DNA from: Bugula neritina
Taxonomy: Eukaryota; Bryozoa; Gymnolaemata; Cheilostomatida; Bugulidae
Reading direction: 5' to 3'
DNA length: 64,000 bases
Assembly: GCA_964035545.1 (NCBI GenBank)
Contig: OZ037770.1
Coordinates: 3,143,662 to 3,207,661 of the forward strand
Shown: positions 38,653 to 64,000 of the stretch, in pieces
Position numbering within the stretch: position 1 is the stretch's first letter
Layout of the letters: each line of letters starts with the position of its first letter
The notes under the pieces: model-generated
Seen by the model: only the letters and a program-made list of their open reading frames with translations
The model's database searches: none
What the model was told of the DNA's origin: nothing
Translations under genes and position numbers: made by a program

Positions 38653-39683
38653 CCTAAATAAGAAACTTGATTAGATATATATTCAAAACTCCATCAAAAA
38701 TAACTTTTAAAAATCAACATTGTATGTTACAATAATATTCTTTTTGTTTTGTTTTGCTAATAAATAAACATGCAAATATAATATTTAATAACATTTCAAA
38801 AAGAAGAAAGAAACAACTTTCGGTGGTTAGAGAGCTGTTTGGTTGTTGAGTATCATGCCATATTTGTTTGAAGTTGTCTTACCTTTTCTGTCATTCCGGT
38901 GTATAAAAATAACACTATTTAATTAAATTAGTTTCAAACTATAGTATTATATAACGGCTGGAAATTAAAGTCGATTTGATCACTTTCAAATTGTGGTTTA
39001 TCTCTAATTATGTTATAACATATAGGCTCAATAATAATATTCTTTGGTATCATATAGTATATTATATTATAATATATTAGATAATACACTGCCTATATAT
39101 TCTAATATAAGTTTTAGTTTTGGCATTGGTTTTAGGTATTATAGAATTGAAACTGTTTTACTTAATCAAATATTTATTTATAGTCATTGTGATAACATAA
39201 TATATACATCTTTAGAAGGATCAAACTCTGTTGAGTGTTATGCATTGTGATATTTTAAATAATTATAGGCTGGCAAATCAACAATAAATAAAACTTATGT
39301 CAATATACTAATGTAGATACTCTATTGTCAGTATAATGTAAAATTGCTTTTCCTGTTCAACAATTTAAATAAATTTATCTGATTTTGGCACTACTTGAAA
39401 CCTATATTGTAGTTGCATTGTTCTATAAACAATAATCGTTTTAACATTAATTGTTTAAATGATAAATGATTGAACTCAGCATATTAGATAGCCTTTGTTT
39501 TATAACTTGTTTAAAATTGTTCAATGCTGAAGTGTAATCTCTACCCTTAATATTACACAGCATAAACTAACTTTAGAGAGCTAAGGCAATAAATTTTTAA
39601 ATTTAAATATGAAGAATGAAATGAATGTTTTCAGAACTCTATCCACGTTAAACTAGTTCAGACTAAAAGTTTGATCAGGGAAA

Positions 39684-42655
39684 ATGTCTTTACTCATGAA
39701 GTTAGCGCTTGTTGGTGAGTTTGCTTTAAATAAGTTCTAAACTTTTCAAGAATTATGATTACTTATTAACTGAACATATTTTGGCAATTTTCAGTTTGTA
39801 TTAGGCAAACAGCATATTGGTGTCTGCCATAATCAAGGCTTTGCACAAAAGACTGTATTTTTTTTAAAAACTGTAAATACATTTTTATTTGAAAAGTTTA
39901 ATTTACACTAAGAGTTTACTTTTGAATTGTAAACCGGAATTTTGTTTTTTTAAGACGGGCAAAGATTAATTATTTTTTTTACAAATCATTTATTCATTTA
40001 AAAGCTATGCAGTATTAAATTTAACACAAAATAATTAATTTACTCGAAGATTTAGGAATTAAAAGAACAATAATTTTTTTAACTTCTTATATAGTGTTGC
40101 TGACATACCCAGCTACTGGACTTGAAGAATGCAGTCTGCATGAGTTAGCTATGAACGGTGCACTCCCGTGTGGCTTTGAATGGTGGCAGAAACATGACCT
40201 TGGGCAGGACATCAATGTCACCAACAAAATATCCGACATAGCAAAGCGAGTATTAATGGCTGTGGACTCAAAGTTATATAATGAAATTTATCAGGAACTT
40301 TTTGAATTACCAGATATTGGCTCTGCTGACCCAATAGCAAAGGTCATTGAATCTACTATCATTCTGTTTCCCTCTTTCTCTGGCTTGCTGTCGGAGGTCA
40401 TGAATGCTGTAGATTTGAGCCCTGAAGCCCTGACAGCTTTGAATCTAAGTAGAAAGGATTTTGAAAAAAGGGGACTTTCAAAGATGGTGAAAGAATACTT
40501 TACAGCTTCTTGTTCAAAGTAAGTCAAACTGATATAATAGAATGATATAATATAATTATATATATATAATGTATATAATTCTGTCTTAAATTGGTCCACC
40601 TCAAAAAAATAACTATAACACAGTTACATATGCCATCCTTATTTACATATACCAACTGTTTAATGTGTCTTTGTAAGCATGATGTTTTATTTTTCAGTCT
40701 TATTTCGTTTTGCAATAATAATAGGTATATTGTCAACACAAGAGAATAAATATGTTGTCAGACTCCAATATATAAATATACAGATAACTATTTCTGTTGC
40801 ATAAATTGTTCGAAATATTTTATTTCTAAGGGCTATTATATGATTTCTTTTATTTTCATTATTCACTTTTGTGCTGTGTCTTTCTTGGCAGGGAGTGTGG
40901 CCTGAAGTCCTCTGTAAAATGTTTCTATACTTGGGTGGATGAAAACTGCTACCGCAACCCGACAATTAACTACTTGTTCGATGAGCTAAGTCACTTGCAA
41001 GATGCATTCTGTTCAGGGGAGCAAGCTAAACGCAGTGTGCTGAAAAGTGAGTCAGTGTACCTGAATTATATAAGTTTTAGCAAATGAAGTTTGGCTCTAA
41101 GCAACCCAAACTTCTGTATTTTCAGTTGACAACTGAAAACGATTATTCTAGAACTTATATGAAAAGCATTAATAAAAGAAATTGTGCTTAGCCTTTTATT
41201 TGTGAGACTTTGCAATATAGAACTTATATATATAGTTGTGCTTTGTTGATTTAGTCATTGTTTTGATTTTACAAAATGTAACATATGTGTACATTACACT
41301 GGACTTTAATACACACTCGTTTATATATAATGATGATGGTAGAATTTCTCAAAGTATTTTGCAAAAAAAACAAAACCAAAAGAAAATTATATATATATAT
41401 ATATATATACACATTGGAGATCTATAGGCCGTTATATATAGACATTTGATAGGTGTAACAACTTTTTTATTGGTAAATTTCTCAAGTTTCACCATTTCAG
41501 ATAGAGCTGAATGTTCATCTCATTGACCTAATTTGTTTATATGTTGTAGTTATCAACAAAAACATAGGTCAGGTTGCCAAAGCGCTGATAAAGTTCTTCG
41601 GAGTTGAGGAAGACTTGGAAAGTTATTACAAATTCCGTTTAAGTCCAAACTCAGAATTTGCAGGCTTTCGAAATAAATTTAAATTATTTCTGGAATTGGC
41701 AACCAGCAGCTCTTGCGTTAATAACAGCCCGACGACATTTAATGAATTGAAAGAAAAAGTCTTAAAGCTTGTAAATGTGGGAGGAACTTCTGGCTTGATT
41801 GAGGAAATAAAATCGTAAGCAGTTGATACTGGGATATCATTATTCTATCACAACTTAACATTAGGACATGTTTAGTGTAATTGTATGTAGCATAAGCTTG
41901 ATTATAATATACCTGGAATTATATACAAGGCAGCATAAAATTAAGAAAATAATTTTTAATAAATCTTAAATTTGAAGAAAAAACAGTTTTTGGACAGGAT
42001 GTGAAGCCTCAAAATCTACATTGAAATTATAAACTATTTTTTAATCATTGAACTTTATTTAATTAACTTCGCGTTCAATGAAACAATTATAATTTAAATT
42101 ACAGTAAATAAATTTGCATAGTGGTTTATTACTACGATTTCAGGCAAATTGTTTAAATGTTTTGCATTGTTATAGAGTTGTGATCTAGGGGGCTGTATAG
42201 GACTAGTTTAGTCAACACCGGGTTGTGGGTTTTACTGCCGTAAATATTAGGCAATGTTAGGACAAGCATCCAATCATAATTTCTCTTTGTCACAACATAG
42301 ATAAGTCTCCAGACTGCTTTAAAACAATTCTGTTCATGAAATATTCCTATATACAGGGAATAGTGAGTATATAAAAACTTGTGTTAATCTAGATGTATTT
42401 ATAGAATCTACTGTATAATAATCTATAGAATCTAGAAGTTCTATAGATATGCATTGTAATTCATATCTACAGAACTTCACATGCTAAATCATACTTTACA
42501 GGGATGTTGAGAAGCTCATGATATGTGGCTTGAATTTCTCGGGAAAGTTTGTTCCAGAAATGGTCAGCTCAAGCACTATGAAGAAGTTTGACGTTGTGAT
42601 GGACCGATTCGGAATATTTAAATTTAAGAATAAATTTGCAGACTTTTTAGGATGA
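39684..42655 (+). CDS. Secreted 8-Cys family protein A (five exons)
   Basis: Exons 39684-39714, 40095-40518, 40892-41046, 41550-41814 and 42502-42655 join in phases 1-2-1-2 to give 342 residues. The N-terminus MSLLMKLALVVLLTYPATG is a typical signal peptide, so the product should be secreted; no membrane segment or domain of known type was seen. Family signatures are CGFEWWQKHDLG (residues 36-47) and CFYTWVDENC in exon 3. There are eight family cysteines plus one extra at the start of exon 3 (ECGL). A potential N-glycosylation site is at N51 (NVT). The body looks largely helical. The untranslated tail may contain an intron (donor TTATGTAAGT near 42668, acceptor TTTGTTTCAG near 43059) before AATAAA at 43307. 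It is the first of four tandem paralogues; the function is unknown. Confidence 0.85.
42190..42335 (+). mobile_element. tRNA-derived SINE, copy 1
   Basis: A tRNA-like head (GACTAGTTTAGTCAACACCG ... GGTTGTGGGTTTTACTGCC) is followed by the shared body AGCATCCAATCATAATTTCT. It lies in intron 4 of gene A. Confidence 0.65.
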
Positions 42656-43306
42656 CGCCAAGATTGCTTATGTAAGTGTCAATTGTGTTGGCAGTAGTTT
42701 TGAAATTCACTTTGAAGTTGCATTGCAAAATTAATTTTTTTTGTATTTTCACATATTTCAAAGAAGTGGCAAATTTTACATTCAGTCACTAATTGTGCCT
42801 CTTTTATCCTAATTGATGTCACTTGCTAACCATTAATGAGTATTAAATCAAATCCAACTTATATACTAATTTTGACTGCTATTAAATTTCACTAACTGCA
42901 TTGTTGTATTATGACTAATTTCTTACCACACAAGTGAAGCAGCAGTGTTTACTAATTATAGCAGTGGCAATAAATTACTATAACTACAAACTAGATAACA
43001 ATAGCTATATAGTTACATAATATAGCTTGCTAACTATTGTTTTATTCTTTTGTTTCAGGTTCTAGCTCCAGCAACATTGGACTGAACATAACTATGCTTG
43101 TGATGGTTTGGCTTTTGAGTCTATTTAAACTATTATTTTAACTTTTGAAACTTTTTGCCAGTTCTATTCTTTCAATAGCTAACTTTCTTCTCTATCATTG
43201 CTTATTTTGAATTTCTATAATTTTACTGGACTCTGATTTCTTGCACAAACTTACGATATTTATATATTAGCTTGTAACTCTTTCTACGTTTTAGTCAATT
43301 TTTCCT

Positions 43307-43312
43307 AATAAA
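43307..43312 (+). promoter_or_regulatory. Probable polyadenylation signal of gene A
   Basis: AATAAA lies 652 bp after the stop codon, downstream of a candidate 3' UTR intron. Confidence 0.45.
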
Positions 43313-44189
43313 AAACTCCTCCATGCACATTCAAAGCATGTTGTAAGGTGTTTGTTAGTAGCTGGTGAAGCTATACAGACTGCCAACTACCATAGCTGCT
43401 GAAGCAGCGTATGGTATATAGGCATTATTGTATGTGTGATTTCAAGCTAGCTATAGGATGCCTTGAAAAATATTCCCCCTTTCAAGTCATGCCCCATGAA
43501 TCATCATTGTTTTTATAGATATTGGGTTTAGGACAAGCTTTGTTGATATGATTAATTAATTACTGCAGTTGTTGAAATGTTTTAGTCATTGATTGTTAAA
43601 ATTAGTTATTGATTAGTGATTGATCGACTGTCATTAGCGTTCCATATTTGGCCCGTTGTTGTTCAACTCATGCTTAGATTAATTGACATTATATATGTTG
43701 TTGCAATAGCTCACTATCCTATGTGTCAGAAATATTATGAGTGGAAATTTTTTCGATAATAAATGACACTTTAATTTGAATGAGTGTGCATATAGCAGAG
43801 TGGATCTCATAGGAGGAGAAGTAACCAATAAATTGCTCAGTATATGTAATCATTCTTGACGAAAAAGTTGTTAATGTAGTAAACCATTAAAAATACAGTA
43901 TATATAATTATGTTGTTGTGAATATAGCTCAATTTATACTTGCTTTAAAGCTTTACAGCCAAAAATCTATAAATACAAAAATAACAATAATTTAAGATCA
44001 TTTTATGATAAAATGATAAAAATAGGTTTAGATAAAATAACAATGCGCATGTGAAAAACCATGATTTTTGTCTTGATAAAGTTTTCATTATTTATAAAAT
44101 AAAGTTACTCATATTGGTTGAAAGTTTTGCAAGCTTTCTTCTGTCAGCTTCTTTTCATGGTTTACAAATAACATTCATAGTAATGTTGC

Positions 44190-44285
44190 TTGGAATCCCA
44201 AAGCCCTTGTGGTGTATTGGTTTAGTATGCCTGCTTGCAAATCAGAGGTCTGTGGCTCGAATCTTGGTTGGGGCAATTATTTTAC
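44190..44285 (+). mobile_element. tRNA-like head of a second SINE type
   Basis: TGGTGTATTGGTTTAGTATG resembles an A box and GGCTCGAATCT resembles a B box, about 40 bp apart as in a tRNA. The same head occurs inverted near 52430-52492. Arm pairing is imperfect, so it is more likely a SINE head than a functional tRNA. Confidence 0.6.
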
Positions 44286-45020
44286 AATTAATTGAATTAC
44301 AATTCAAGCGCATAGGAAACAGTACAAAGCATTTCCCATTCAAGTATTGATTTTTGACAGCAGTCTATATAATTATGGGTGAAAACCCTTGTTTGAATTA
44401 CATTAATTCTTGCAGTCTCTGCATCACTAGATATTACATTTCTCAATTTGGTTTTAAATCCTTCAATAATTCAAGTGATAACTTAGTTTTTACATATGCG
44501 AATTATTATTCTGCAGAGGGGGGAGGGGGGGGGGAAACAAAGGCAATTAAGGTATATACTGTCTTGATTTACACAAACATTTACTCTGAAATAAAGATAT
44601 ACAGTAGTTCGAAAAAGTGCATTAGATGCACAACAAACTTATAGATAATTATACAGAGGAGATGCATACATGATATTATATAAAGCAATTTATTGTAACA
44701 TAAACCAAAGTTCTATAATAAATGCATGGCGTAGCTATTTAATGTAGTAGCTTATAGCATGTATGATATAATAATATATTATAAAACACACATAATTTTA
44801 TGGCATTAATTATATTGTTTTATATATATTATATAAACAAATCTTTTATAATAAATTGCATCATGCTACAACCAGATTATATCATAACTGAATTGCACGG
44901 AACTTACGTTATATGGCTATAATCTTATAGGATTCCTAACTTGAAAATAAATATTTTGCTGTTTTATTTGTTTAACATCAGTTGCTCAGTATCAGAATTG
45001 TTTTCTAATCTGCAAAGTAT

Positions 45021-45230
45021 AGCAGCAGCCGCAGTCTAGGGGTCAGAGCACTGGCTTAGCAAACCTGAGGTCATGGGTTAAAATCAGCAGAATATGGACA
45101 ACTGGTAATGATAGAAAAAGCATCCAGTCATAACTTCTCCTGTGCCTCATCTGGATAAGTCTTTAGCCTGATTTAAAAACTTCTTTCTATTAGAGGCTTC
45201 CCTTAAAGGTAGTAACGATATAAACTTTTA
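45021..45230 (+). mobile_element. tRNA-derived SINE, copy 2
   Basis: Head AGTCTAGGGGTCAGAGCACT with B-box-like GGGTTAAAATC, then body AGCATCCAGTCATAACTTCT and ATCTGGATAAGTCTTTAGCC. The body is shared with the copies at 42190, 45870 and 62755. Confidence 0.75.
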
Positions 45231-45869
45231 CACCAGCGAGCTGTTCCATGCAAATCTGCAAAACATGTTTTCCGTTACATGAAAAATAATCAATTTTAAT
45301 TTGAAAATAATTTTTTTTTCAATGTTTATATAACACTGGTTCAAGGCTATATAGCTGTATGAGCCACAGCTATAGAAAAGTATAGCGATAAGTGAAGAAT
45401 AACCATATTATAGTTAAAATATAAGCACATCAATAGTTAGTTTATATATAAAACATAATTACTGTAATTGAACCATAACTACACGTATAGGTAAACTACA
45501 AAGTTATATAATATATTATAGTTATGATAAGCATAATATCATTGAAGGAATATCTGATAATACATATAGATAATTTAACACATATTGTTTTATGTTAAAA
45601 AATAAAAATAATATTTGATTTGATCTTTAATGTTATATTTTAAACTCTTTATACCAGCCTAACACTGGCTTGCTTGCTATTTAAATATTAGGCAGATGCT
45701 GTGCATTATATATAGCTCACTATAAGCACAGTGTATGGGGTTTTGTAACTAATTTTCAAACTCAAATAACCTGTTTATATAATACTTTGTTAGCTTATAG
45801 TATACAATATAAATACAAAATCATTCGTTAACGCAGCTTACACTGCTCGCAACTAAAACTGATGTAAGT

Positions 45870-46045
45870 TTATGGTCACTGTCCCTGTGGGAATCTCTGA
45901 TGAAGACTTTTCCTATTGTGGCAAAGGGGAAATTTTAACTGGATGCTATTTCTATAATATAAACGTCAACACCAATTTTTGGACTCAAACTATTGACCTA
46001 TATAGTGTTTACTAGGTCAGTTCTCTAACCACAGCTGCTTCCAGT
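45870..46045 (-). mobile_element. tRNA-derived SINE, copy 3
   Basis: Inverse orientation. It contains AACTGGATGCTATTT (body) and, at the right, GGACTCAAACTATTGACCTA and TCTCTAACCACAGCTGCT, the complements of the B and A boxes. Confidence 0.72.
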
Positions 46046-47050
46046 GCTTCTCAATGCTTTGCTGTATTATTATTAAAATAATAGCACTCATTTAAATTAA
46101 TGCGGTTTAATTACAGATTGTGGTTCAAAATAGTGTTAAGATAATTACTTCAGCTCACTGCTTCTCGTAGTTATGACTTTAATATATATTTATACCTCTG
46201 AAGATTAACCCAAGAAGCATTTAGAGTATCATGATAGTACACAGGTCTAGTAAATTATAAACGTGCTATATCATATATAGCATGTGTGTGGATTCAAATC
46301 TTTGCAGCCACTGATATAATGCCAGAAAGAAAAATCAGTTATGAATTTCCCTGAATTACTTCAATCGCATTATTAAAACTTATCATTGGCTCTATATATA
46401 TTATCTTCTTTATAACATAAGAAATAATTTCTATGAGTCTTAATTAATTGATTCAAAAAGTTCTAAGAGAACTATAAAGATGCAAGCAACATATATATTG
46501 CTGTGAAAGGCCGTGCCCATTGCACGCATGGCTATAACTTCAACCTAGTTAACCATACGTGCATGTTGTTAAAGTTTTGCTATTCATGATGCAATAAAAT
46601 AGATAAACAAAAAAAAATTATATTGTCTGATTTTGACAGATAAACATTTAGATTTTTATCATAGATATATAAACCACTAGTTGTGCATTTTTATCAATAA
46701 TAATGCACTATGCTAATTTTGTTTATGTTATAATACAATAATTATAGAATGAATTTGGCTCAAGTGCTTTGATTGTATAGAAAAACAATAGTTAATTGTA
46801 TTCACATCACATGGCTCTTCAGTAGTTTAGAAGTAGGTCTATACGTACGGTTTTATGTTTTGAAATTAGCTTATTTTCAATATTGCTTAATTATTACAGA
46901 TATCATCAAAGGGAGTATAATATATATACTATAGAACCAAGGCTATAAAAATGTAAATACATATATAACCATAAAGCTGGTTACAGACTAATACAGTTGG
47001 AGGTTGTTCAAGTTAGGCTGCTTTCTGATTGACAGCTAATTGACGGAATA

Positions 47051-49267
47051 ATGCAGTTACCTGTATTAGCTATTATTATTGGTATGTATATTGCTTTTTG
47101 GTTGCTCTATATATATCTCTATAACTTTTTCATTATTGCATTATGCAATAATTTTTTCATTTGGCTAATGGAAGTATATAAGTTACATTGAATGAAACTA
47201 TTATAAGTTAATGCAAAGCACTACCCACATTTATTATAATGCACAGTCTTGGAAATGCAGTGAGCAGATATTTTGCATAGTTGTTCTATAATATAAATAT
47301 CCCAATTATTTCTGTTATTAATTGGCAATTAGTTACTATATTACATTTCCTGCATTATTTGCTATATACATCTGTACCGTATTTGCTTTATAAAGTGCCA
47401 ATTATTTGCCTGTGCATTGTTGCTTGTTATTTTCTATAATAATATACATTTCCTGATGTTACTCAAAAAAGTCTTTATATAGCAATTTTGCTAATTGCTA
47501 TTGTTTTTGCTTGTTGTTACATGTCTGTATTGTTTGCTAATTGGTATAATTTTTGATTCGTGCTACATGTATATTATAATGCTATATAAAAGTTATTTTC
47601 TAGTCGCTTATATATATGTGAAATATTGCTGTGTTTGCAGAAGTTTGTTAATCAAACCAAGTTATTCAAATAGTCAAAATTATTTTAAAAGAAGCCGTGT
47701 GAACTTGTTATGTTACAAAAGGCACACGTTAAGTTTTAATGTACATCTTTTACAAGAACTGAGCAAAATAAAATTCAAGTTTTGTTTCGTTTCAAATTTT
47801 TAAAAACCTATAATGAAAATATAGTGTGTCTCTAAAGAAATTGAAAGAATTTTACTGTGGCACGGAACAAAATAATAGTGCTATACATTCCTTTACATCA
47901 AAAACTTACTTACTAAGCTAGAGAATTTATCACTAGACATAATAACTAACATCATAAAACTAGTATAAACTAAAATATAATAAAGAAAAGTCATTTTTAA
48001 CTGCAAATAAAATTATGTGCCAAATTTTATGGGTTTAAAATACTTTTCAGTCCTACTATCCAGCTGTGCTGCTGGCAAGCCAAAGTGTGACATACGGAAG
48101 CTGAGTGTAGAAGGAATATATCCGTGTGGAGCAAAATGGTGGAAGTACTTTGACCTGGGACAAAGTAACAATGTCACTATCAAGATGTCCGACTTAACCA
48201 AGGTCGTGCTGAATCATTTCAACCCGTGGTTGCACGCTGGAATAAATTTAGAACTCTCTGAACAGCTGCATATTGACTCAGTAGACCCCATGGCAAAAAT
48301 TCTGGAGTCAACCTTCACTTTGTTTCCGTCGTCTGTCAGCTTCATTTCTGAGATATTAGATGGTCTTCAGACAAAGCCAGATGCGCTGAGGAGTTTTGGC
48401 ATAGAGCCTTTTTCTCGTTCAAGGAGAATTCTCCAAGATGTTTTTATAAAAGACTATTTTGAATCTTCCTGTTTAAAGTAAGTGAATTTAATTTAAATAA
48501 TAATGTATGCAAATAAGATTTGAATAACAATTAAAATTGTTAGAAATATATAATATCCTAAACTGAAATTAGTATAAGATGCATATAGTATACTATATGT
48601 TCGTCTGTGCGTGCGTTTGCGTTTGTGTGACCTTACATAAAATACAGGAAATGTATGTACTGTATGTAGTTTATGTATAGAACAAAAATAATTTATAGAA
48701 TGTGAAATGTGTTACCGAATATAAATTATATCTACATGCATCATTTGAAATATATACAATGCATTGAAAGTGTAAAATTTATAGAATATTTAGTTCCATA
48801 GAATAATATATGTAAAACATAGAGTGTGCAGGATATAGTTTTTATTGGGCATTTTATCATTTATTGTACTTTTAATTGTCTTTCTATTAAGTTTTATGAA
48901 ATAGTTTTAGACAGAAGGGCGAAATTTATTCCTGTTTCTCTGAGTGGGTGTTTTCCAACTGTGAGATGGACAGGTCTGTTGACTTCCTGTGGGACTTGTT
49001 AGACCATTTCACTACTGAGTACTGTAACCATGACAACACAGTCAAACAAAGCGTTTTGAACAGTAAGTGGATTACACTGTATAATACATGTTATCTGACC
49101 TGTGTTCAACTAATACAATATCAGATTGAAACTTTAGTGTGTGATAACTTCTGAAACTTTTCTGATTAGAAAGATTAGCAATGATAAAATAATTTAATAA
49201 AATACTCATTATAAACAAATATAACTACAAATTATTTGTAATATATTATAGTATATACATCATTAGG

Positions 49268-49322
<55 letters not shown>

Positions 49323-50759
49323 AACGTCTATATACTGTATTATGTATATTGCACTTTGTAAATTAAAACTATATAGTATCATGTCCATCTGAATTTAAAC
49401 ATACCTAAACTTTTTACATTTTATTACATGATACAGCATCAGCTTGGTTGGTTGAGTAATTTTCTTAGTGAAAGTATATTGCTTTTACATAATTTCAAAT
49501 ATAATATGCAACATTTTACAATATTTACTACAATTTTGCACTTTCAATGAATAATAGTTATTAGCCTATAATACCTCATTTGCTTTATCTTAAACTAACT
49601 TTTTCACTATACCAAAACTGAAAACAAAACATTTTAAACCAGTTTGCACAAATTTTTAAGAACTTTATTCTTTGTCATTTCTTGCAGTTTTCAACACCAA
49701 TTTTGGAGCAGTGGGTGCGCAACTCTCAAAGTATAAAGGGACAGAAATAATCATTGAGCACATCAACCACTTTCATTCAACCGACACAATCAAATTTTCA
49801 TTCTACCCATTGCTAAAGCATTTGGCGCAACTACATGGTGTGGAAGACACCTTCTATGCTATAATGCACCATTCCAACTCCCCTGAGGATGTTTTGTTTC
49901 ATATCGATCAAGTTGTCTCCCCTTACCTTATTCCTCACTGCAAACAGAATCTTTCCTCTATTATTCACATAATACGGGAAAGTTTTGAAAAAAATATTTT
50001 GAGGAGCTCCAACATTCGTGTCGGCAGCATGAAAAAGTAAGTGAGGAAATAAACATTTATTTTAACTTGGCTCCTGCAGTTTTTGCGCTTTGAGGTTTTT
50101 CTTTCAGATATCTAAACTGCATGGCACTATTTCTTGTTCTCTCAAATGTTTTGATAGACGAGTTAGTTTTAAAAAAAGTTGATATATATGTGTATAGTAG
50201 TTGGTTTCACAGTATCTTTCTTAGATTGGTTTATTCTTTTTTAAGCAAACTTACTAGCTACAACGGAAAAATATTAAACTAATGTATTATGTTATAATTT
50301 ATATACCAGTTCAACTGTTTTTTTACACTTGAAAGCAATCAATTTAAAAGAAATAGTGATTATATTTAATGTAGCAGTAAAACCACATATTTCAATTTAT
50401 AGACAAGCAAATATATCAAAAAGTAAAACATATTAGCCGGAAAAAACACCTATAAAATTCACCTCCATTAAACGAGCTATTTGTGCTGTGTATAAATAAG
50501 AATCATTATTTTAAAGTGTTAAATGGAATGGTACAATGTCCTAATTAGGCTAAATCGTATATATACAATATAAACTCTAAAGATAACCATATTGTGATAT
50601 TACAGAGTTTTAGAGCACTACGGCATATGTGGTCTGAAAGCCATAGGCTCTGTAGCCTCTGAGGTGATAACTCCCAGTTCCCTGAACAAAATTAACCTTA
50701 TAGTTCGTCGTCTTGGAGTAATCAACTTTAAAGAAAAGTACAACCACTTTAAACCTTAA
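47051..50759 (+). CDS. Secreted 8-Cys family protein B (five exons, most divergent)
   Basis: Exons 47051-47081, 48051-48477, 48911-49062, 49688-50036 and 50606-50759 join in phases 1-2-1-2 to give 370 residues. The start MQLPVLAIIIVLLSSCAAG is a signal peptide. Family signatures: CGAKWWKYFDLG in exon 2, CFSEWVFSNC in exon 3, GICGLK and RRLGVINF in the last exon. Exon 4 is 115 codons against 84-87 in the other paralogues, with an insertion rich in His (HINHFHS, IMHHSNS). Sequence divergence from A, C and D is high, but the exon structure and eight cysteines are kept, so it is under structural constraint. Intron 3 holds a long AT microsatellite. AATAAA is at 50845. The function is unknown. Confidence 0.84.
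49268..49318. repeat. AT dinucleotide microsatellite
   Basis: About 25 TA units in intron 3 of gene B. Confidence 0.97.
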
Positions 50760-50844
50760 TAGAGCCTATTGTAAGTTTTATTAAAAAATTTTATGGTTCC
50801 TCTTTGCAAAAATATATGGTGAAGTTTGTTGAAATGTAAATATA

Positions 50845-50850
50845 AATAAA
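50845..50850 (+). promoter_or_regulatory. Polyadenylation signal of gene B
   Basis: AATAAA 86 bp after the stop codon, followed by GCTTGTGTTG. Confidence 0.7.
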
Positions 50851-51397
50851 GCTTGTGTTGCAATATTCTCAGTTGATTGCAAGTTTTATTGCTGTGTAAG
50901 CTTTTCTTCAATTATTGTATTTTATGACATTTCATGCAGTTGTGATAAGTGAGTTACAGTTGTTTCATTGTGACTGCAGGTATATTGCACTGACTGTCAT
51001 CATTATCTAATGGTTTAGTATAATCTGTCCAAAATTATTTTGACTCAATTGTAACGTTTGCTTGGTTTTTTGAGAGGAGACAAACGTTATATATATATAT
51101 CTGAATATTGCACAGCTCTAATACATAATGATTATTACATTTAATTAAAGAAAAACAAAATAGCGGTATTTAAACAGTTAATTTCAATTTTAAATTTTGA
51201 ATAGTTATTAATGAATGCATCGAATGGCTATGTTTTATTTTTGTCATTTGATCAATGTTATTGTCTCAACAGAGACAACTGCAGTTTAATCAAAACGAAA
51301 AATATGAATAACAGCACTTGAATTATGCAACTCCAAAATTTAAATTTTATTTTTAGAATTAGAGAATTATGTTTCTGAAATTTATTTTCTAGGTTTT

Positions 51398-51511
51398 GAC
51401 CTATGACCTGATGACCTAATGACCCTATGACCTGATGACCTAATGACCCTATAACCTGATGACCTGATGACCCTATAACCTTATGACCCTATGACCCTAT
51501 AACCTTATGAC
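51398..51511. repeat. Tandem array of TGACCT / TGACCC
   Basis: Six exact TGACCT and five TGACCC occur in about 115 bp, mostly with an 8-bp period. TGACCT is the complement of AGGTCA, the nuclear-receptor half-site. Confidence 0.85.
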
Positions 51512-52424
51512 ATCTCTCACGTCTTCAGTAATTATACTTGTGTTCGTTGAAATTTATTTATAAAGAAAATTTTAAATTTTGTGTTTATGTGATTGAAAGA
51601 CTTTAATTTACTAATTTGCCCCAATTAAATATTTTAGTTTTTTAATGTTGCAAATAACATATTGTTTTAACTATTAGCTCAGCATTCAAGCTACAGTTTA
51701 AAATATTCAGTTATAATTATTTGTTGTTTAAAGTTGTTTTAATAAACTTTAACCTGCATAACTCTAATTAATTGCTATTTCTACTATTATTGGCCGTTTC
51801 TAACTATAAGTGGTATAATTATGCATTCAAGTTGCTTCCATCAACTTTTATCAAAATGATACATTTAAACTACAAACTTATAAAAAATGTTTTAGGAATA
51901 AACCTAATCATGAGCAGGTTGTAAATGATTTTAAACAAAGTAGCTTAATGTTCACCAGCTTTATACGCACTAAACTGAAATATTATTGATCTTTACTTCG
52001 AAACAAAAATAACTTCTATTAAATAAGATATAAACTTGCAGACAAGCCAAGTGTATTATAATATTTGTGATGATAAACAAAACTGTCAAAAATAATTTTC
52101 AAATTGATTTCCTGTTGCTTTGTAATTTACCCAGTGTATGACACAAATTGCATCTGCAGTTTTTTTATCCTCAATAGTGTCATGCAGCACAGCGTATATA
52201 CTAAAACACAGTATATATAAGTTTTCAAAAAATATGCATTAAAACAATATATCATAAAGCAAAGACAATGTCTATTATAATACAATATGTAATAACATAC
52301 AATACACAATTAAGTTTATGTTGCACCAAATTCACAAAAGGAACAGAAACTAGCTAGTAGAATACACTCATATAACTGGCTGCTCATAATTGCTTGCAAA
52401 GGTTTTGCTATAAAAACCTTCACC

Positions 52425-52495
52425 TCTACTGGGATTTGAACCACAGAACTCCGATTTGCAAGCAGGCAAACTAAACGTCGCACCACCATTAAACA
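52425..52495 (-). mobile_element. tRNA-like SINE head, inverted
   Basis: Complement of the head at 44190: TGGGATTTGAACCACAGAAC, then GATTTGCAAGCAGGCAAACT, then GCACCACCA. Confidence 0.6.
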
Positions 52496-52979
52496 CTATT
52501 ATAATTGCAAGACCTCAAAAAGTTCACTTATAATTGCATTATTAAAAAATAGAAATTGCAGTACACTAAATACCATTATGTAAAAAAAGTCTTTAGTTAG
52601 AAAGTGCTAAAAATACAAATCACTTTAGCAGACGTGAGATATGAGCACGTAGCAGCATTTCAACTCGGCAGATGTCTCTCATTATTACCAATTGTTCTGT
52701 GATTATTGTAATAGATGCTGGTTTAGAACGTGACAAAACATTTATCTACTCTTGGCAAAATACCACATGATTTCGAGTAGTCCTCAGCACACTAAGTAGA
52801 CTGAGTTCTAGCTTTACTTAACAATAATCATAAGTCATCTATATATGGGACACTTAAATGAGTACTATATATCGATTGTTTATCTATTATACCAAGGCTA
52901 TAGATTACTTGCATGGTTGTATATTTATAACGTCAAGCTTTCCAGTGTTTGACAATTTGCTTACAAATTCGGTAATAGA

Positions 52980-55900
52980 ATGACTGACTTAAAGACAAGT
53001 TTCACTTTTGTTGGTAAGTATAATAGACACTACAAAATTTCTATTTTTTTATAACTTCCACTAACTGAAAAAAGTTCCAGTTATACTATAATAATTATAG
53101 TATAACTGGAACTTTTTTCAGTTATTGTTTGTTCACAGCTTAATTTCTGACTTCACTGGTAATGCTGGTATTTGATCACAGAAATAGACTTATTTGGTGT
53201 ACAGCTTATAGATTGTCAAATTTAATAATTATTTAACTGGGAAAAATATTTTAGCTTCAGGGTATTTTATTTTTACCAGCTCGCAAGTGGCTTTTACATC
53301 TTTTTTTGAAAGCAAAAATTTACAAGTTAATTTGCATTTATAAAGTTGCATGTATAATATATTGCCTTTTTTATTGTTAATTGAAAGTTCAACTGCGCGT
53401 TCACATCAAATGTGTTTAACTAGTTATGAGTCAGGTATAAAACATACATAAAATCAACAGGATATTAAACTGATTTGCACATGCTCCATACTTTATTTTT
53501 TTTAAAAGTAGGCCTACATAATAATATATTACTAGCCCTTGACTGCATTTATATGTAAGTATTTGGAAAAAACTGCAACACATTGATTAGAGTTAAACTA
53601 TGACCTACAAGTCCTAGGAGAAGTATTGCATATAGATACACTGACAAGCCCCACTGCTGTGCAACAAACATTTATCTTTATTTACCTGTATCTTAGTCTT
53701 CTTGACAGCTAAAGAGAGAAATCTACAGTGGCTTATTTAACCCTAATAATGTAGCATGCAAATGTATGCCTAATAAATGTTTAAAAGCAAATAAAGAATT
53801 AGCATCAATTGTTGTTACCTGGAGAAGTGCATTCTAAAATGCTCTACTGACTATTAGCTTTACCATACATTTTATTATCAGCTGAAAAATTGATTTTCAT
53901 TCTTGCAAAACATAATATGCATGATGATGAAATGTTGAAGCAATTAAATTGCAGTTATGTAATCATTAATTTGTCTTTTTGCAGTTTTAGCTCTGATTGC
54001 TGGGCCTGGCTTGGCTAGCAGGGAATGCAATCTGCACAACTTTAGTATACGTGGAGCTGCTACTTGCGGCTTACAATGGTGGCAGTCTAAAGACCTCGGG
54101 GAAACAATCAGGGTTTCTAATAAAATATCGGAAATTGTCAAAAACCTGGTAAAATCTGTTAATGCTTCTCTTTACGATGAAATAAGTTTTTCTCTTCATG
54201 GACAGATCATGGCTGAGTCAAATGACCCTCTAGCAAAGGTCATTGAGTCTGCTCTTACGGCATTTCCATTCTATGCAAGCATCGCGGCTGACATTCTCTA
54301 CAGCTTGGAGCTGACTCCAGATATGCTGGTGACTTTGAACCTACCAGAAGAACTTGCGACTAAAGAGTTCTTGCAACAGATGACAAAGGAATACTTTGAC
54401 TTTTCTTGTTCATCGTGAGTAAAATTTCATTTGCAAAACGAAATAAACTCAAGTTTCCATTGTACAAAAAGTCTTCATTGGTTCAGTGTATTAAACGATC
54501 TAAAATAAAAACGAATTACTTTAGGTTTCATCATCTCCTACCTGGTATCGTATATTAGCACCACCCACCTATACATTTGAACCAGTCATCTAAATGTTAG
54601 CACCACCCACTTATATTTATAAACCCCACCCATTTGTCTGAAATAAAAAGGAGCTACTTTAAGTTCCAGCATCTCCTACCTAGTTTTGTATATTATAGCC
54701 CCACCCACTTATATATGAGCCCCACCCACTTAAGTATTAGCACCTTCCATCTATATAGTAAAACCTATTACTTCTATAATTATTGACACCACCCACTTAT
54801 ATATTAGCACCAGTCACCTACATATTGGCCCTACCTACTTATATATTAACCACACTTACTTATATATTGGAACTGCTCATTTATAAATAAATAGCACCAC
54901 CCACCTATGTATTAGCACCACCCATTTATATATTAGCACCACCTAATTATATCATGTATGCATTAGCACCACTCACTTATCCATTAGCACCACCCATTTA
55001 TGCATCAGCACCACCCATGCATTTACATATATATTAGCACCACATATATAATATTAATATAATATAGTGAAGTAGCAATTGCATTCCCTAAGAAATTTTT
55101 GCTACTTTATAGTTCCTAGCTTTCTTGCATTGCTGAACAAATGCTTCTTTGCACTTAAAAATAAATAAAAAATAAGATGGCATATAATATGGGGTAAAAT
55201 TATGCTTTATCAGACATATGCATGTAAAGTCTATATTCAAATTGAATGACAATATTGTAGGTTTGGACTTGAAAGTGTGGTGAGCTGTACAAGGAGATGG
55301 GTAGTCCGCAACTGTAGAAATGGCGAGGATGACGTGCAGCAAGTAGCCAACTTGCTGAATCACCTCTTGAATGAATACTGCTACAACCGCTTTGCTAAAT
55401 CCAGCGTGTTAACCAGTAAGTCTTCAGCAATAGCATTTGATAAATTTTGATGTCAATAATTATTTTTAAATAAATCTCTCGCTTCTATATTATAGTTATT
55501 TGCTATACTGCAGGCTGTAGCTTTATAGGAACAAAAACTTTTTATATACCTGCGAGGTTCTTTATGTAATTACATATTCAATATTGATCCAATAAAAAAG
55601 TTGTTTGATAATATTTCAGCTTTCAACAGAGATTTTGGAGAGATTGGCAAAGCAGTGGTAGATTTTTACTGGGCTGAAGTGAACCAGACAGACTTGCACC
55701 AGCTGCCTCTGTCAAACACCTCTATTCTCGCAGATATCCTTTCTGGCTTTGATATGATAGTGCCACCTGATTTTAGTGCTTGCAGTCAGCTTGCTGAGCA
55801 ACTGATTGCAGGAATTTCTAAAATGAGCAGCCCTTTTAGCAATGTCGGGGTTGGCACAGCTCTAGAGAGTCTATCAGGGTAAGCAGTTTAAATATTAACA

Positions 55901-56683
55901 TTTGACATGCACTAGAATTTAACTTGAAAGCGGTTTTATTTGAGGTGCAGTAATGGAGAAATTGAGAAGATCCCGTGTAGCTCTAGATTATAATTTCAGC
56001 ATAACAAGTTATGCTCTCAAAAAATTTTGCACTTTTGCAAAACTAAAAGTTAGTAAAAAATTAAAGAACTTAGGCTATCTCAGTTTCTTCACTATATAAT
56101 AACTGCTCCTGTAAAAGTTTTTTCTGTCTTGAAACTCCTGAAAAATGAATTATCTTTTCTCAGTACAACTTAACTACTAATCTTGAAATATTGTGTTCAA
56201 TTTTGCCAAATTTAAAACACAAACTTGAAGTTACAATCTCCATGCTGCATGCTATTTCTTTATGGTATAGCATAGGCAGAGATTCTTAACTCTATATTAA
56301 AGAAATTTTTAATTTGAAGTCATGCAATGTGCATATTTTTAATTATGTTGTAAAAATTTCCCGTTTAAATACATCAACAGCATTTTTGGCTACTTTATTT
56401 TTCATTAGCACATATTAACATTTATTCACATATCATAAACTACATTATATATGACTAATCAAGCTAGCACACACAAACACACTGTATGTAGCAGGTTTTA
56501 TAGCAATGTCACCTGATTTATAATTCTAGAAAAATAGGAAGCTATATGGAATGTGTCCTTGACACGATACCTGAGGTATTTCCAGCTCTGGCTACTCAGA
56601 GTTCTCGTGAAAAGTACACCCTCTTCTTCAGACGTTTAGGCCTGTACAGATATGTTCAGCATCTCGATGTCACACAGGGATAG
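52980..56683 (+). CDS. Secreted 8-Cys family protein C (five exons)
   Basis: Exons 52980-53013, 53985-54414, 55261-55415, 55620-55878 and 56530-56683 join in phases 1-2-1-2 to give 343 residues. The N-terminus MTDLKTSFTFVVLALIAGPG is a signal peptide with probable cleavage near GLAS. Signatures: CGLQWWQSKDLG (exon 2), CTRRWVVRNC (exon 3), SACSQ in exon 4, RRLGLYR near the C-terminus. It has eight cysteines, consistent with four disulfides, and possible N-glycosylation at NAS, NQT and NTS. It is closest to gene D: the signal-peptide tail and large blocks of exon 2 are almost identical. Intron 1 contains a perfect 61-bp palindrome and intron 2 an AGCACCACCCA array. AATAAA lies 11 bp after the stop, so the 3' UTR is very short. 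Substrate or partner unknown. Confidence 0.87.
53063..53123. repeat. Perfect 61-bp palindrome
   Basis: 30-bp arms with no mismatch around one base. The left arm starts AACTGAAAAAAGTTCCAGTT and the right arm ends AACTGGAACTTTTTTCAGTT. It lies 50 bp into intron 1 of gene C. Confidence 0.95.
54540..55045. repeat. AGCACCACCCA degenerate tandem array in gene C intron 2
   Basis: About 18-20 units of roughly 20-25 bp around TATATTAGCACCACCCACTT. It is related to the array in the same intron of gene D. Confidence 0.85.
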
Positions 56684-56693
56684 TTCACCTGAC

Positions 56694-56699
56694 AATAAA
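56694..56699 (+). promoter_or_regulatory. Polyadenylation signal of gene C
   Basis: AATAAA starting 11 bp after the TAG stop. Confidence 0.6.
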
Positions 56700-59095
56700 A
56701 CTAATCTGCATGTAATAACGTGTTTACTTACTGCCAAGCTAGCTTTCTACATATTATAATATAATAACATTATAATGTATTTGTTTGCACTGCCTATATC
56801 ATGTTTTGCTAGAATATGATTCACTTATTAATTTGAAATGTATTTTGTTTTACTTATAATGTCGAAATATTAAAGTTTGTACTAAATAATCAATGAACAA
56901 ATCAATAATTCAAAATACAGAAATAAAATAAAAGCTTTTTCTCAAATGACTAATTATCTAATAAGTTTTGCATTACCTTTTATCAGGTGCAATACTTGTT
57001 CAGCTACATCTACCTGATATATACATATCCTATAATGTTACTAACTATAGTATGCAGAAACATATCCTACATGCGGTACTCAATATGTTTAACAGATTTA
57101 TAAACTCTGTCTGCAAATTGTTGTACTGCATTGGAAAATGATTTCATTTATGTAACTTTAATAAAAAATTGAAATAGGTTATATAAAGTGTAAGTCGCCT
57201 ACTTCTTTCTATTGATTAATAAAGTGAAACATTTATGAAAAGCCAAGTGCATGACATAAATTTGAAAAATTGTTACATAGTAATATCATGAATACATAAA
57301 TTGTTTTCCAGTAAAGGAATATTTTGCAAACTGTGAACTATATATAACTGTTTTTACCATTGAGTAATATTCATCAAAACAAGGAACATGAGGTTATATA
57401 AGCTTTCACATCTCGATAGACTTTGTTCTTAGATTGTGATATAACATTTGATGTTATAGTATACTCTCTATATATAATTATTATAGTGCCAAGGGTTCTC
57501 TCAGTAGTTCACACTTTAAAGCAAACCTAAGTTATTATGTGAATATATATAAAGTGACACTAATTCCTATTAAAACAATAAGCTGGTAAATAACTTTATA
57601 TATACCAAGTTTTGCAGTGCATTATTGCATCATTGAAACTCATGGTTTGTATTATTATGCCGTCAATGTTACAACGTCTTTTTTTTGGAACTATTTTATG
57701 AGCAGCTTGGAGTTGAGAGTGAATGAGTGCATTAGCTTGGGGTCCTCAAGCTTTGAGTTGATGGACCTAATTCCAGACTAGAGAACCCCAAACTACTGCA
57801 CTGAGTCATCCCCAATTCCAAGCTGCTTATATAAGAACAATTTGTTTTTCTTTGAACATATATATTTTATAATATCAATTTTACTTCAATAGAATAAATT
57901 ATATTTTTTTAGTCATCAATCTAAAAGTATTTTCTCAATTTTTTGTTCATTAATTAAAAATATTGGCAGTGTTTTCAAAACTTAAAAACGTCATGGAACA
58001 ATTAATTATAGGTACATCCAGAGTTCTTCTATAATATTTATACATAACATTTCCTGCATAGCTGCAATAATTAGTCATAAATCAAATTTTTGAAAAAAAC
58101 AGACGTACAGTTTTTTTAAATTAGCAATAATGCACAAATATATGCAGTTTATAAATTTTTGATAGCTTCAAAAGCGATGCGTAATATAGGCTACAAGAAA
58201 ACATCTGCGCTCAAAAGCAAAACAAGTGAATTGCCAAAATATTTTTTAGTGAATCCTGGCAACAGTTTTCTGTAAATTATAGTTTTAGTAGTTTACGCAT
58301 TTCGTTTGCTAACCACAGTTTTCAGAAGAGTTTTAAAAGAATTTTACGATGATTCTGAATTTTAGATTAATGTGAAAGGGTAGATATTTTATTACTAGTG
58401 TGGTCTGTAGTTTTTATCCACATATTTGAAGTACAGCTTATGTTACGTACTCACTCTTGATCACAGCTAGCAGGATAAAGATAAGTTCTGAAGCTCTATA
58501 AATTAAATTTGAGATGCTAATTAAAACACTATATTTACATCACAAGTCTATAATTATTATGACCCATAGCAATGTAGAGCAGCATATTTAAGCACAAATA
58601 ATAACTTTTAAAGTTGATGTTATGTTGAAAGCAATGAGCACATGGCTAAAGTTTATAAAAAAATGTGTCACTTATAACTATATCAAATTGAAACCCTTTG
58701 ATTAAAATGTCGTTATTATAGTCCTTCTGCTTGTAGTACAATACTATCTAGTAGCAAAGCATAATATGCATTGTCAACAACTAAGAGACAAGGAAATTAC
58801 TCTACTATGCAGGAACTACATAGAATAGCAGAATTATCAGCTGTGAAATTGTCAAGCATATCATATAACCACCATCTGTTCTCTCCTATTGCGCTGTAGG
58901 TTTCACTAGAACGTGCCCGGTGCCTCATGGTGTCATATGAATGATGATTGAAAGATTTATTGTACGCTGAGCTAGCTAGTAAAAAGCACATATTTGGCTA
59001 AAAAGACATTGCAATCTCCAGAGATAACCAAATATATTTTAGGAACTAAAAATGTTATTTTAGAGTTGTCTTATTTTATCATTGTCTTGCAGTTA

Positions 59096-59424
59096 GCCCA
59101 GGGCCACACGGTGCGTATTTTCGCATGCGAAAATTGAAACCACAAGTAGCAAAGGCGTCCACTGTAGCGTCAGTGATGCGTGATAATTAAAGCCTTCATT
59201 TTTAAATCGCACTCGCTTTCAAGAAAACGCAATTTACTGGAATTTAGCACTAAAATAAAGAAATTGGGCTCGCTTAATAATTACCAGCCAATTAGGTGAC
59301 GACGACAGAGACGATTCGCACTTGCGTTGAAAATGCAGAGCGACAAGTGCGAATGTTTTCTCAACGTTTGCTACTTGTGATTTCAATTTTCTTATGCGAA
59401 AATACGCACAGTGTGGCCCTAGGC
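59096..59424. mobile_element. Harbinger-like MITE, copy 2
   Basis: 329 bp with ends GCCCAGGGCCACACGG and its inverse, and TTA target duplications at 59093-59095 and 59425-59427. Its internal part is inverted relative to the copies at 5101 and 63615. Confidence 0.85.
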
Positions 59425-59884
59425 TTACTCATGATGCATTCCAATTTTTCTCTCCTATGCAGTACTCTTTTCAGCATGGCTGACACATAAATAGCACCCG
59501 GGCATATTCAAATATATAATCAGCAATCACATGATGGGCATACACCAACAGTATCATAGCCAAACTCTGTGGAATCTGTCTGTTATTATTAGTATGTGAT
59601 AAGTATAAAGGAAATTATTGCTAGGCAAGTTGGCAGGCTATTCGTACCTTGATGGCAGATCACCACAGGGTGTAAGTGCTTTAGCACTTAATACTCTGGT
59701 AGACTTTGTTCTGTAGCTTACCATTTGCTGAACCACTCAAAGACAGCTTCTATATGAAAAACCAATTCGGATAACACTTTTAGTTTTCATTAGGCTGAGG
59801 CTACACATCACTCGTCTAGTTTCATATATTTATAGCAATCAAATTCGTAATCCTGCACAGTTGCCAGACAGAGCTTCATTAAAA

Positions 59885-62418
59885 ATGACCTATCTGAAAG
59901 AGATTTCAGTTCTGATTGGTGAGTAGACTAAATTATATTTAAAAGCATACATTTTAAGTTTGTGTCGAAGTTTTCAACAAACTGGAAAGAGAAAAATATC
60001 TCTTTAGCTTAATACTTGTTTTATTTATTCTATGTGCTCTACTCTTAAAGCTTACTACTTTTTTATATTCGGAAAGTAGGCTCTTATGTTCTTTCAGCTA
60101 GATTCTATGCTGTTGTTTTTTATTATTTATTTGACAAAAAAAGAACATATTTTGTAGCTATTCTTTAAAGTTTTACATCTATATTGTCTCTAATTGGAAG
60201 AATATTTTAACATATTTTTGTCTTCACAAGTTATAAACAGTATATTATTATAAAGCTTAGACTTGAATTGCTTTCTAATGTATCCATCAAAATATCAAAT
60301 GACAACATAAAATGTGGTTACAATTATTAAATTGTCGATTAGTTCATCAGCGAGTTACTTGGTCAGTAAGCTACCCAGGAGTTAGTATTTTCAATTAATT
60401 AACTGAATGCGGCATAAGCCAGGTTCATGTTATATAATCTTTGAAATGTGTAAAATTTTGAGCTCGGTAGAAGTTACCATAATTCCTTCTCATTTGAAAA
60501 AATGATTTTTTTTTTTAATATAACTTAATATATCTGCTACCAACAATTTTAAACGAACTAAATTGCTTTAATGACTTCAAACTTGTCTTGCAGTTTTAGC
60601 TCTGATTGCTGAGCCTGGTTTGGCTAGCAGAGAATGCAATCTGTACAACTTTAGTATGCGGGGAGCTACTACTTGTGGCTTACAATGGTGGCAGTCTAAT
60701 GACCTTGGACAAACAATAGCTGTGACAAACAAGATCTCACACATAGCAAGAAATGTGATGAATACTATTAATGAATCCCTTTACCACGACCTAAATTTGT
60801 CATTGGTTGGACAGATTATGGCTGAGTCAAATGACCCCTTAGCAAAGGTCATTGAGTCTGCTCTTACAGCATTTCCATCCTACGCGAGTCTTCTGACTGA
60901 CATTATGTACAGTTTAGAACTGACTCCAGAAATATTGCAACGTTTCAACCTACCAGAAGAACTTGCGACCAAAGAGTTCTTACAGCTGATGACAAAAGAA
61001 TATTTTGATTTTTCTTGTTCACCGTAAGCTATTTTTTAAATTATTAAATTAATAATACCCAAGAACCTTTATTAATATTTAATTTTCTTTTAATATTCTG
61101 AAAAAACATACAAGGAAAAGGGCTTATAAGTTCTATCATTCTCGCATAATGTATGTTGAATTGCATCATTCCAACTGGTATAAATATGTAGTTTAACACT
61201 GCCCATTTAATACAGTATAGCACTGCCCAATTCTTATAGCTTAGCACTGCCCACTTTTCATAACTTAGCACCGCCCATTTTTTATAGCTTAGCACTGCCC
61301 ACTTTTTGTAACTTAGTATACTGCTCACTTACTATAGACTCCTAATTGTCCACTATACCAGTCCAATCTAAAAACGCAGGCTGAATAATATAAGCTCACA
61401 TTTCATTCTGCATAATACTTATACATGCCTATCTTTTTTAACTTACTTGATTGCAATTTTGTAGGTCTGGGATTAAAAGTGTTGTGAGCTGCCTTATGAA
61501 TTGGGTGAGACTCAACTGTGGGTATGATGACAATGTATATCGAATTGATTACATGCTCAGTAAAGTAGCTAATGAATACTGCGATGGTAGCTCAGCTAAG
61601 CCAGCTGTGTTGACTAGTAAGTTATTAGCATGTATAGTTCCTCATAACTGTATAATACATCAATTATTATTTTATTTTAGATATTATACATTTATTTTTA
61701 GAAAAAAGCTTTGTGGTAAACACGGGACTTTTTTAAAAACTAAAATTTCTTCACAAATGTGAGATTTCGATATTGTAACAGTGTTTTTATAATATTGCAG
61801 CGTTTACCAAAAACTTTGGAGAGATTGGTAAAGCAATGTTGAAGCTTTATGGAATTGAAAAAGATCCAACAAGTCCCTACCAGTTCCGTCTGTCAAGCAA
61901 CTCCCTGCTTGCAGACCTCCTTTCAGGTACCAACGTGACCGTGCCGGGTCTCAGCGCTTGCAGCCAGCCTGTAGTGCAGCTGAACAGAGCGATTGCTGAG
62001 CTGAGCAGCCCTTACAGCATTGTAGGGACTGGCGCGGCTTTAGAAAGTCTATCAAGGTAAGTAATTGAGGCGTTTAGTCACATATGGTAGTTACGAAATG
62101 CTTGTATGAATGTTTGATAGCTATTTCTGTCTCTTGTTACACAGAAAACTGTCTTTTTCTAGCTTAAGTTTACACACACGCACACACACAGCACACATGC
62201 ACATGATTGAAGATTTTGGGCCAAGGACTGTCTCTAAAAACTTGCTTTGTTAATTGATAAATTCCATTTGCAGAGAAATAGATGCCTATAATACAGAATG
62301 CGTCCTCAAATTCATTTCTGAAGTATTTCCAGCCCTGGCTTCTCAAAGTTTTGTAGAAAAGTACACTCTCTCTCTCAGACGTTTAGGAGTGTACAGATCT
62401 GATCAAAGTCTCTTATAA
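59885..62418 (+). CDS. Secreted 8-Cys family protein D (five exons)
   Basis: Exons 59885-59918, 60594-61023, 61465-61616, 61801-62056 and 62274-62418 join in phases 1-2-1-2 to give 338 residues. MTYLKEISVLIVLALIAEPG forms the signal peptide. Signatures: CGLQWWQSNDLG (exon 2), CLMNWVRLNC (exon 3), SACSQ (exon 4), RRLGVYR (C-terminus). It has eight cysteines and NES, NLS and NVT glycosylation motifs. Exon 2 is a mosaic against gene C: the first 40 residues and the GQIMAESNDPLAKVIESALT block are almost identical, while the 33 residues between share only about 15. Exon 4 is closer to gene A in one segment (YQFRLSSNS versus YKFRLSPNS in A). AATAAA is at 62575. It is the last member inside this window; more copies could lie to the right. 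Confidence 0.87.
61190..61332. repeat. AGCACTGCCCA array in gene D intron 2
   Basis: Five to six units of about 25-30 bp (ACTTAGCACTGCCCACTTTT type), in the same intron as the related array of gene C. Confidence 0.82.
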
Positions 62419-62900: not shown

Positions 62901-63614
62901 TATTTTACGACACATATGCTAATGCTTTTATTACTCCAACACACAAACACTCAAGTTACAGTTTGAGCTAAACATTAAATTTCATCTTCAATTAGAGCAT
63001 AACTCCAAATGCAAGTTTTAGTTGGCTGTTTCTAATAATAGTACTTATAATAATTTATATAATTGCACATATGATAGGCTTAAAAGCACAATTCAACACA
63101 CGAGCCGATTTTTGTAATCAAATAATTCAACTGGCTAGTTTGTAAAATATTAGAGTAAACTATGTATTATATAATACAGCCACTATGCATAGTATTCTAT
63201 ATACATGCAGGACACATGCAATGTGCTAACAAGTATAGAAAATAAACAAACAAAACCTCAACTTCAACTTAAAAATGTTTAGATTATGAGTTGCTTATAC
63301 ATATATCCATAAAAATTATAAATTGTTATTCAACATAAGAACTTTTATTTAAGTATGTTAATGCAGATATTTGAATCATTCATTTAATTTGAGTTTCAAT
63401 TTTAGAACAATTATCAACAGGCCTCATGCTTGGATTTGTTAACTCGTGAAAAATTTACTCCATTAGTATACTAAATATATTAAGAGGTAATATTGTAGTG
63501 AACTTACAGTTCACTATAAATTGTGGGTCTACTTATGCAAAGCCACTTCGCCAGGTTTCGTACAAACTGAATAGACTTTATTATTGCGAATAATACAAGA
63601 AATAAAACTGCTAA

Positions 63615-63958: not shown

Positions 63959-64000
63959 TAACTAACACTAGTACACACGATTGCATAATAATAGAGTGAT

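Follow-up and report, generated by a model that had tools for sequence, protein, structure and literature searches.

The four genes of the window

The window analysed here is a stretch of 64,000 nucleotides from the genome of the bryozoan Bugula neritina (C6:3143662-3207661, where C6 is very likely chromosome 6), and it contains four tandem genes, here called A, B, C, and D, for apparently secreted proteins that share eight cysteines. In the genome note for this species, the assembly measures 216.00 Mb, chromosome 6 measures 16.05 Mb, and the mitochondrial genome measures 15.25 kb (PMC11480708). When the DNA is spliced at GT-AG sites, A, B, C, and D encode 342, 370, 343, and 338 residues, respectively; all four genes lie on the plus strand, span positions 39684-62418, and have five exons with intron phases 1-2-1-2. 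This reconstruction recovers, in every gene, the orientation, exon number, and phases, and for the cluster the outer limits, that had been described in an earlier note on this DNA (the original prediction). The first 10-11 residues of a hydrophobic leader come from exon 1 and the remainder from exon 2, which agrees, as judged by eye in A-D, with the earlier description of a signal peptide split by intron 1. The exons are as follows (window positions).

39684..39714, plus strand, gene A exon 1 (start codon, first part of leader)
40095..40518, plus strand, gene A exon 2 (Cys 1-3, CGxxWWxxxDLG)
40892..41046, plus strand, gene A exon 3 (Cys 4-6, CxxxWVxxNC, one extra Cys)
41550..41814, plus strand, gene A exon 4 (Cys 7)
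42502..42655, plus strand, gene A exon 5 (Cys 8, stop)
47051..47081, plus strand, gene B exon 1
48051..48477, plus strand, gene B exon 2
48911..49062, plus strand, gene B exon 3
49688..50036, plus strand, gene B exon 4 (exceeds that of A, C, and D by about 30 residues)
50606..50759, plus strand, gene B exon 5 with stop
52980..53013, plus strand, gene C exon 1
53985..54414, plus strand, gene C exon 2
55261..55415, plus strand, gene C exon 3
55620..55878, plus strand, gene C exon 4
56530..56683, plus strand, gene C exon 5 with stop
59885..59918, plus strand, gene D exon 1
60594..61023, plus strand, gene D exon 2
61465..61616, plus strand, gene D exon 3
61801..62056, plus strand, gene D exon 4
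62274..62418, plus strand, gene D exon 5 with stop

The eight cysteines occupy common alignment columns in all four proteins, with A and B having one extra cysteine apiece, and both signatures (CGxxWWxxxDLG and CxxxWVxxNC) are present in each. Moreover, exon junctions 2-4 fall at alignment columns 157, 210, and 328 in every gene, and junction 1 falls at column 14 in A and B versus column 12 in C and D. Pairwise protein identity is 27-34% except for C and D, which are 62% identical; the near-identical blocks previously reported for this pair are therefore real but short. At the DNA level, exon 2 of C and D is 80% alike and exon 1 is 49% alike, and their introns are 51-59% alike in a global alignment that has no shuffle baseline for AT-rich DNA. 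Comparisons using tblastn show that exon 2 of every window copy matches that of each other copy (E 3e-21 to 1e-68), which excludes chance resemblance among A-D. Exon 3 also matches between window copies (E 1e-7 to 0.02), exon 4 matches between A and D and between C and D, and exon 5 matches only between C and D. The first AATAAA or ATTAAA lies 187, 21, 11, and 157 bases after the stops of A, B, C, and D, respectively, which is weak support for these gene ends in AT-rich DNA. If the family is defined by five exons, phases 1-2-1-2, and eight cysteines in register, all of these features are seen in A-D, and it is nearly certain that A-D and the relatives described below form a single gene family with this anatomy.

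Gene D is flanked by a pair of foldback (inverted-repeat) elements, each about 340 bases long (window 59091-59429 and 63612-63963); they are 88-94% alike in the compared stretches and are probably a small mobile element. Minisatellites are located in intron 2 of C (54540-55046, unit of about 21 bases) and intron 2 of D (61189-61308, unit of about 24 bases).

Extent and evolution of the family on C6

Searching the same genome with proteins D and N as queries gave at least 44 matches at E up to 10 for D (all 42 first-look candidates were scored) and at least 29 for N (29 of 29 scored), from which we identify at least 14 family loci, all on C6. This count, which depends on the two queries, is a lower bound, and further diverged copies may exist. 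The original prediction of a cluster of four was thus too small, as the array continues past the window edge: eleven copies are present in 81 kb, namely A-D followed by five on the plus strand and two on the minus strand, and three more (J, K, and L) are located 2.2-2.3 Mb from this main array. The two on the minus strand are M and N.

C6 3215.6 kb (exon 2), plus strand, copy E, exon model
C6 3220.9 kb (exon 2), plus strand, copy F, exon model
C6 3224.9 kb (exon 2), plus strand, copy G, exon model
C6 3231.2 kb (exon 2), plus strand, copy H, exon model
C6 3236.3 kb (exon 2), plus strand, copy I, exon model
C6:3246899-3249526, minus strand, copy M, exon 2-5 model
C6 3264.6-3261.9 kb, minus strand, copy N, exon 2-5 model
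C6 861 kb, copy J, exon 2-5 model
C6 907 kb, copy K, exon 2-5 model
C6 1010 kb, copy L, exon 2-5 model

Exons 2-5 of these ten copies were modelled with the 1-2-1-2 phases imposed, and their agreement is a consistent fit rather than an independent proof. An exon 1 of phase 1 was identified in E, F, H, J, K, and L, giving ten of the 14 copies when A-D are included. Upstream of exon 2 in G and I, just the last 29-31 bases match E well (E 4e-9, the other matches being at E 0.048 or worse), so that exon 1 seems to have been lost. In addition, an in-frame TGA interrupts exon 3 of I, and the model of I, which was fitted with the stop allowed, has no homologous donor after exon 4. G and I look like broken copies. 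The reading frames of E-H extend past the stop position used in J-L, and the C-termini of E-H are uncertain.

Thirteen copies were aligned, leaving out I because of its in-frame TGA, with exon 5 of E-H trimmed to 45 codons and with G and J trimmed in exon 2 to the length seen in the other copies. The eight cysteines reported earlier are invariant in all 13, and are accompanied by other conserved positions (25 invariant columns in total, including C-G-x2-W-W-x3-D-L, A-K, and E-S). The two signatures that had been called strict hold throughout the window, but across the family each is found in full in 11 of the 13 copies, and both fail in M and N. These two proteins lack the final glycine of the first signature together with the W-V and the asparagine of the second, which in M and N reads C-A-K-P-K-x4-C. 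Identity between M and N is 33%, and either of them shares 18-27% identity with the six other copies used for comparison. Each aligned copy contains 1-6 N-glycosylation sequons. In the tree of the 13 copies, M pairs with N (support 100/100), A pairs with B (96/98), K pairs with L (100/99), and E-H form one group (98/97). Long branches were flagged for B, A, M, and C, whose placement is unsure.

Exon 2 of M is unusual in containing a 246-residue stretch composed of 35% threonine, 21% proline, and 11% serine, most of which derives from about 17.7 units of a 36-nucleotide repeat. Compositions rich in these three residues are typical of mucin-like, O-glycosylated stretches, and we infer that M is a mucin-like form with putative O-glycosylation. 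The repeat separates one half of the exon-2 domain from the other, so this site is probably an exposed loop that can accommodate a large insertion.

The earlier suggestion that the family is expanding is borne out by the 14 copies and by the recent duplicates among them. E-I and their flanks contain blocks of 0.5-4.6 kb that are 78-97% alike in DNA, introns included, and weaker matches of about 71% tie these blocks to a stretch beyond I. A 4.6-kb block that extends from F into G has a 92.8% match in one that extends from H into I, perhaps implying that a two-gene unit was duplicated, and the E-H proteins are 90-96% identical. The main K and L blocks measure 2.0-4.7 kb and are 94-97% alike, with shorter blocks at 83-97%, and their coding regions have no synonymous difference (nonsynonymous divergence, dN, 0.005; synonymous divergence, dS, 0.000). 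These comparisons support the assignment of E-I as recent tandem duplicates and of K and L as segmental duplicates.

Pairwise coding comparisons, from which M was left out, give dN/dS values of 0.28 (NG86) and 0.33 (YN00) for C and D, and of 0.21-0.53 in the 21 pairs with dS of 0.08-0.9; older pairs, for which dS exceeds 1.5 or is saturated, carry little weight. When E-H are compared with J-L exon by exon, the means are 0.12-0.35 for dN and 0.47-0.87 for dS. There is no sign of positive selection in either the pairwise or the per-exon ratios, which are averages over genes or exons rather than site-wise measures, and at this level the coding sequences show purifying selection on the family.

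Known relatives, predicted structure, and other elements

Pfam-A was searched with A-D and then with A-D, F, J, N, and a repeat-excised M (eight of the 14 copies), and no match rose above a curated cut-off, the best E value being 0.085. This best match is a 59-residue local alignment of D, and of no other member, to Thioredoxin_13 (PF18401), which at 13.2 bits against a cut-off of 26 we attribute to chance. Among the four window proteins nothing exceeded the NCBIfam cut-offs, and the best match, a tRNA methyltransferase model at E 0.031, is not credible. Similarly, no credible relative was found among PDB sequences, either in a first search (best E 0.88, unrelated names) or with a profile of eight members compared to 177635 PDB sequences (best E 0.37, unrelated names); besides the 13-copy alignment, there is one of eight of the 14 copies. 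Because the names returned by Pfam, NCBIfam, and the PDB are weak and mutually inconsistent, we reject the reading of these proteins as carriers of a known domain. With the window proteins and the eight-copy set, Pfam gives no match up to E 10 to SapB, C1q, or defensin domains, and no similarity to vitellogenin or to any carrier family. No relative was found in IMG/VR contigs or GTDB genomes, or for exon 2 of D (the sole query) among plasmids, none of these being a collection of animal genomes, and Rfam has no match within the window. A literature search for such a family or for secreted proteins of Bugula, which was based on words rather than on sequences, did not find the family either. The suggestion that the family is possibly undescribed therefore stands within the reach of Pfam-A, NCBIfam, and the PDB sequences; homology to a named domain, which would have contradicted it, was not credibly seen there, and the family appears to be unnamed in the libraries searched.

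Structural clues were sought in an alignment of 12 copies (without M and I). Hydrophobic periodicity near 100 degrees is 0.300 compared to 0.218 (sd 0.014) in shuffled alignments, with none of 500 shuffles reaching the observed value, and there is no strand periodicity at 160-180 degrees, where 376 of 500 shuffles reach the observed level. The presence of the former and absence of the latter point to mainly alpha-helical proteins. Saposin-like and other small disulphide proteins share the helical, secreted, and disulphide-braced character predicted for the family, SapB having a six-cysteine pattern, but the Bugula proteins have eight cysteines rather than six, are several times longer, and have no SapB match. 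Excerpts of the literature on bivalves describe C1q-domain proteins and big defensins as secreted families that have also expanded, in the case of C1q by tandem duplication. The Bugula family differs from both in having no C1q, defensin, or other Pfam domain and in spreading eight cysteines over about 300 residues and four exons.

Elsewhere in the window, a LINE-type (long interspersed nuclear element) retrotransposon is located at 19919-23507 on the minus strand and comprises three overlapping open reading frames (ORFs), of which one has a PHD finger, another has endonuclease and reverse transcriptase, and the third has no Pfam match. Pieces of an LTR-type (long terminal repeat) element at 28924-31416, also on the minus strand, have reverse transcriptase, RNase H, and a weak aspartic protease match, and sit in a GC-richer patch (47%). 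An uninterrupted ORF of 1221 residues (27-3692, minus strand) contains a DUF294-like nucleotidyltransferase region and many TPR repeats, and two further minisatellites are present at 38182-38716 (unit of about 28 bases) and 51379-51527 (unit of about 8). In the wider genome, the mitochondrial cox1 gene (contig C295, 15,248 bases) has nine in-frame TGA codons, and 14 AGA/AGG codons fit serine at sites where cox1 usually has serine, which indicates the invertebrate mitochondrial code. On the basis of this serine fit, a sponge origin of the DNA is rejected. Further cox1 matches are present on C6 (11174072-11175412), C17, C196, C65, and C4. The C6 match, at 433.3 bits compared to 435.4 for the mitochondrial copy, might be a recent nuclear insertion, and the C17 match, which has no TGA, perhaps belongs to a contig from another organism in the assembly.

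Possible functions of the family

Tandem arrays of secreted cysteine-rich proteins are a known kind of gene family. Taken as a whole, the observations are best explained by a birth-and-death array whose products are binding proteins that are secreted, mostly helical, and braced by disulphides, with a mucin-like form among them; we assign this explanation a probability of about 35%. On this explanation, a family that undergoes birth and death on one bryozoan chromosome would supply secreted-type proteins of about 320-350 residues bearing N-glycosylation sequons, in which the eight cysteines could pair into as many as four disulphides, bracing a helical, globular domain that is not an enzyme. 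The paralogues would bind different ligands or surfaces outside the cell, in material secreted externally or into a body cavity (mucus, coelomic fluid, or fluid of the brood chamber, for example), and M would present the same domain on a mucin-like stretch within a mucus gel. A binding function, considered by itself, is a tentative proposal that we regard as rather doubtful, and a role in recognition, defence, or matrix is a guess.

Several observations weigh against this explanation. Helix and strand propensities have equal means (1.004 and 1.021), leaving the periodicity as the sole ground for helicity, and the helices drawn by AlphaFold2 for exon 2 of D alone, using four sequences, have a mean pLDDT (predicted local distance difference test) score of 41.9 and count for little. 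The leaders of A-D were called by eye, and no exon 1 was found upstream of M or N when it was looked for. Moreover, there is no homologue of known function in Pfam, NCBIfam, or PDB sequences, and dN/dS is not raised, contrary to what rapid diversification of a recognition type would predict.

The same data bear on other explanations. The proteins might be components of matrix, cuticle, or adhesive (zooid wall, mucus, or larval cement) whose extra copies raise dosage, as would suit the absence of synonymous differences between K and L, the 90-96% identity of the E-H proteins, and the mucin-like character of M. By eye, however, the window proteins have no repeat or polymer-like composition, and A, B, M, and N are just 18-35% identical to the copies with which they were compared, a divergence that pure dosage does not need; we consider this explanation unlikely. 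An only slightly poorer prospect is that the gene products serve innate immunity or self/non-self recognition in a colonial animal and have diversified through duplication. The tandem array, recent duplicates, broken-looking copies, and disulphide-rich extracellular type are all consistent with such factors, but the dN/dS values of the 21 informative pairs and the per-exon means among recent copies are all below 1, and the Pfam search revealed no known immune domain.

Helical secreted proteins often carry hydrophobic ligands, and the family could in principle consist of nutritive, storage, or lipid/hormone carrier proteins, supplied for example to brooded embryos. The helical secreted type fits such carriage, and excerpts of the literature report a placental analogue in some cheilostome bryozoans, but the lack of Pfam similarity to vitellogenin or any carrier family leaves this explanation improbable. 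A more serious possibility, falling somewhat short of even odds and compatible with any of the functions above, is that the family is a divergent branch of a described secreted helical family, invisible to the sequence methods used. The searches were HMMER comparisons with profile libraries and PDB sequences, and fold prediction covered exon 2 only, all of which leaves room for such a branch; against it, the eight-member profile and the single members searched against Pfam came no closer than the weak best matches given above.

A bolder form of the preferred explanation, a secreted array of helical binding proteins, would have the domain be an undescribed fold of bryozoan origin that multiplied on a single chromosome to give a set of secreted proteins, including a mucin-like form, for recognition in the mucosa or brood chamber, although we regard this as a long shot. 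According to excerpts of the literature, chromosome-level bryozoan genomes are recent. The clear gene models, the divergent M/N pair, and the very recent duplicates together provide a concrete target for expression and proteomic studies of mucus, brooding, settlement, and defence in a fouling species. If it is true that relatives are absent elsewhere, the family would be a clear-cut example of an extracellular domain of young age.

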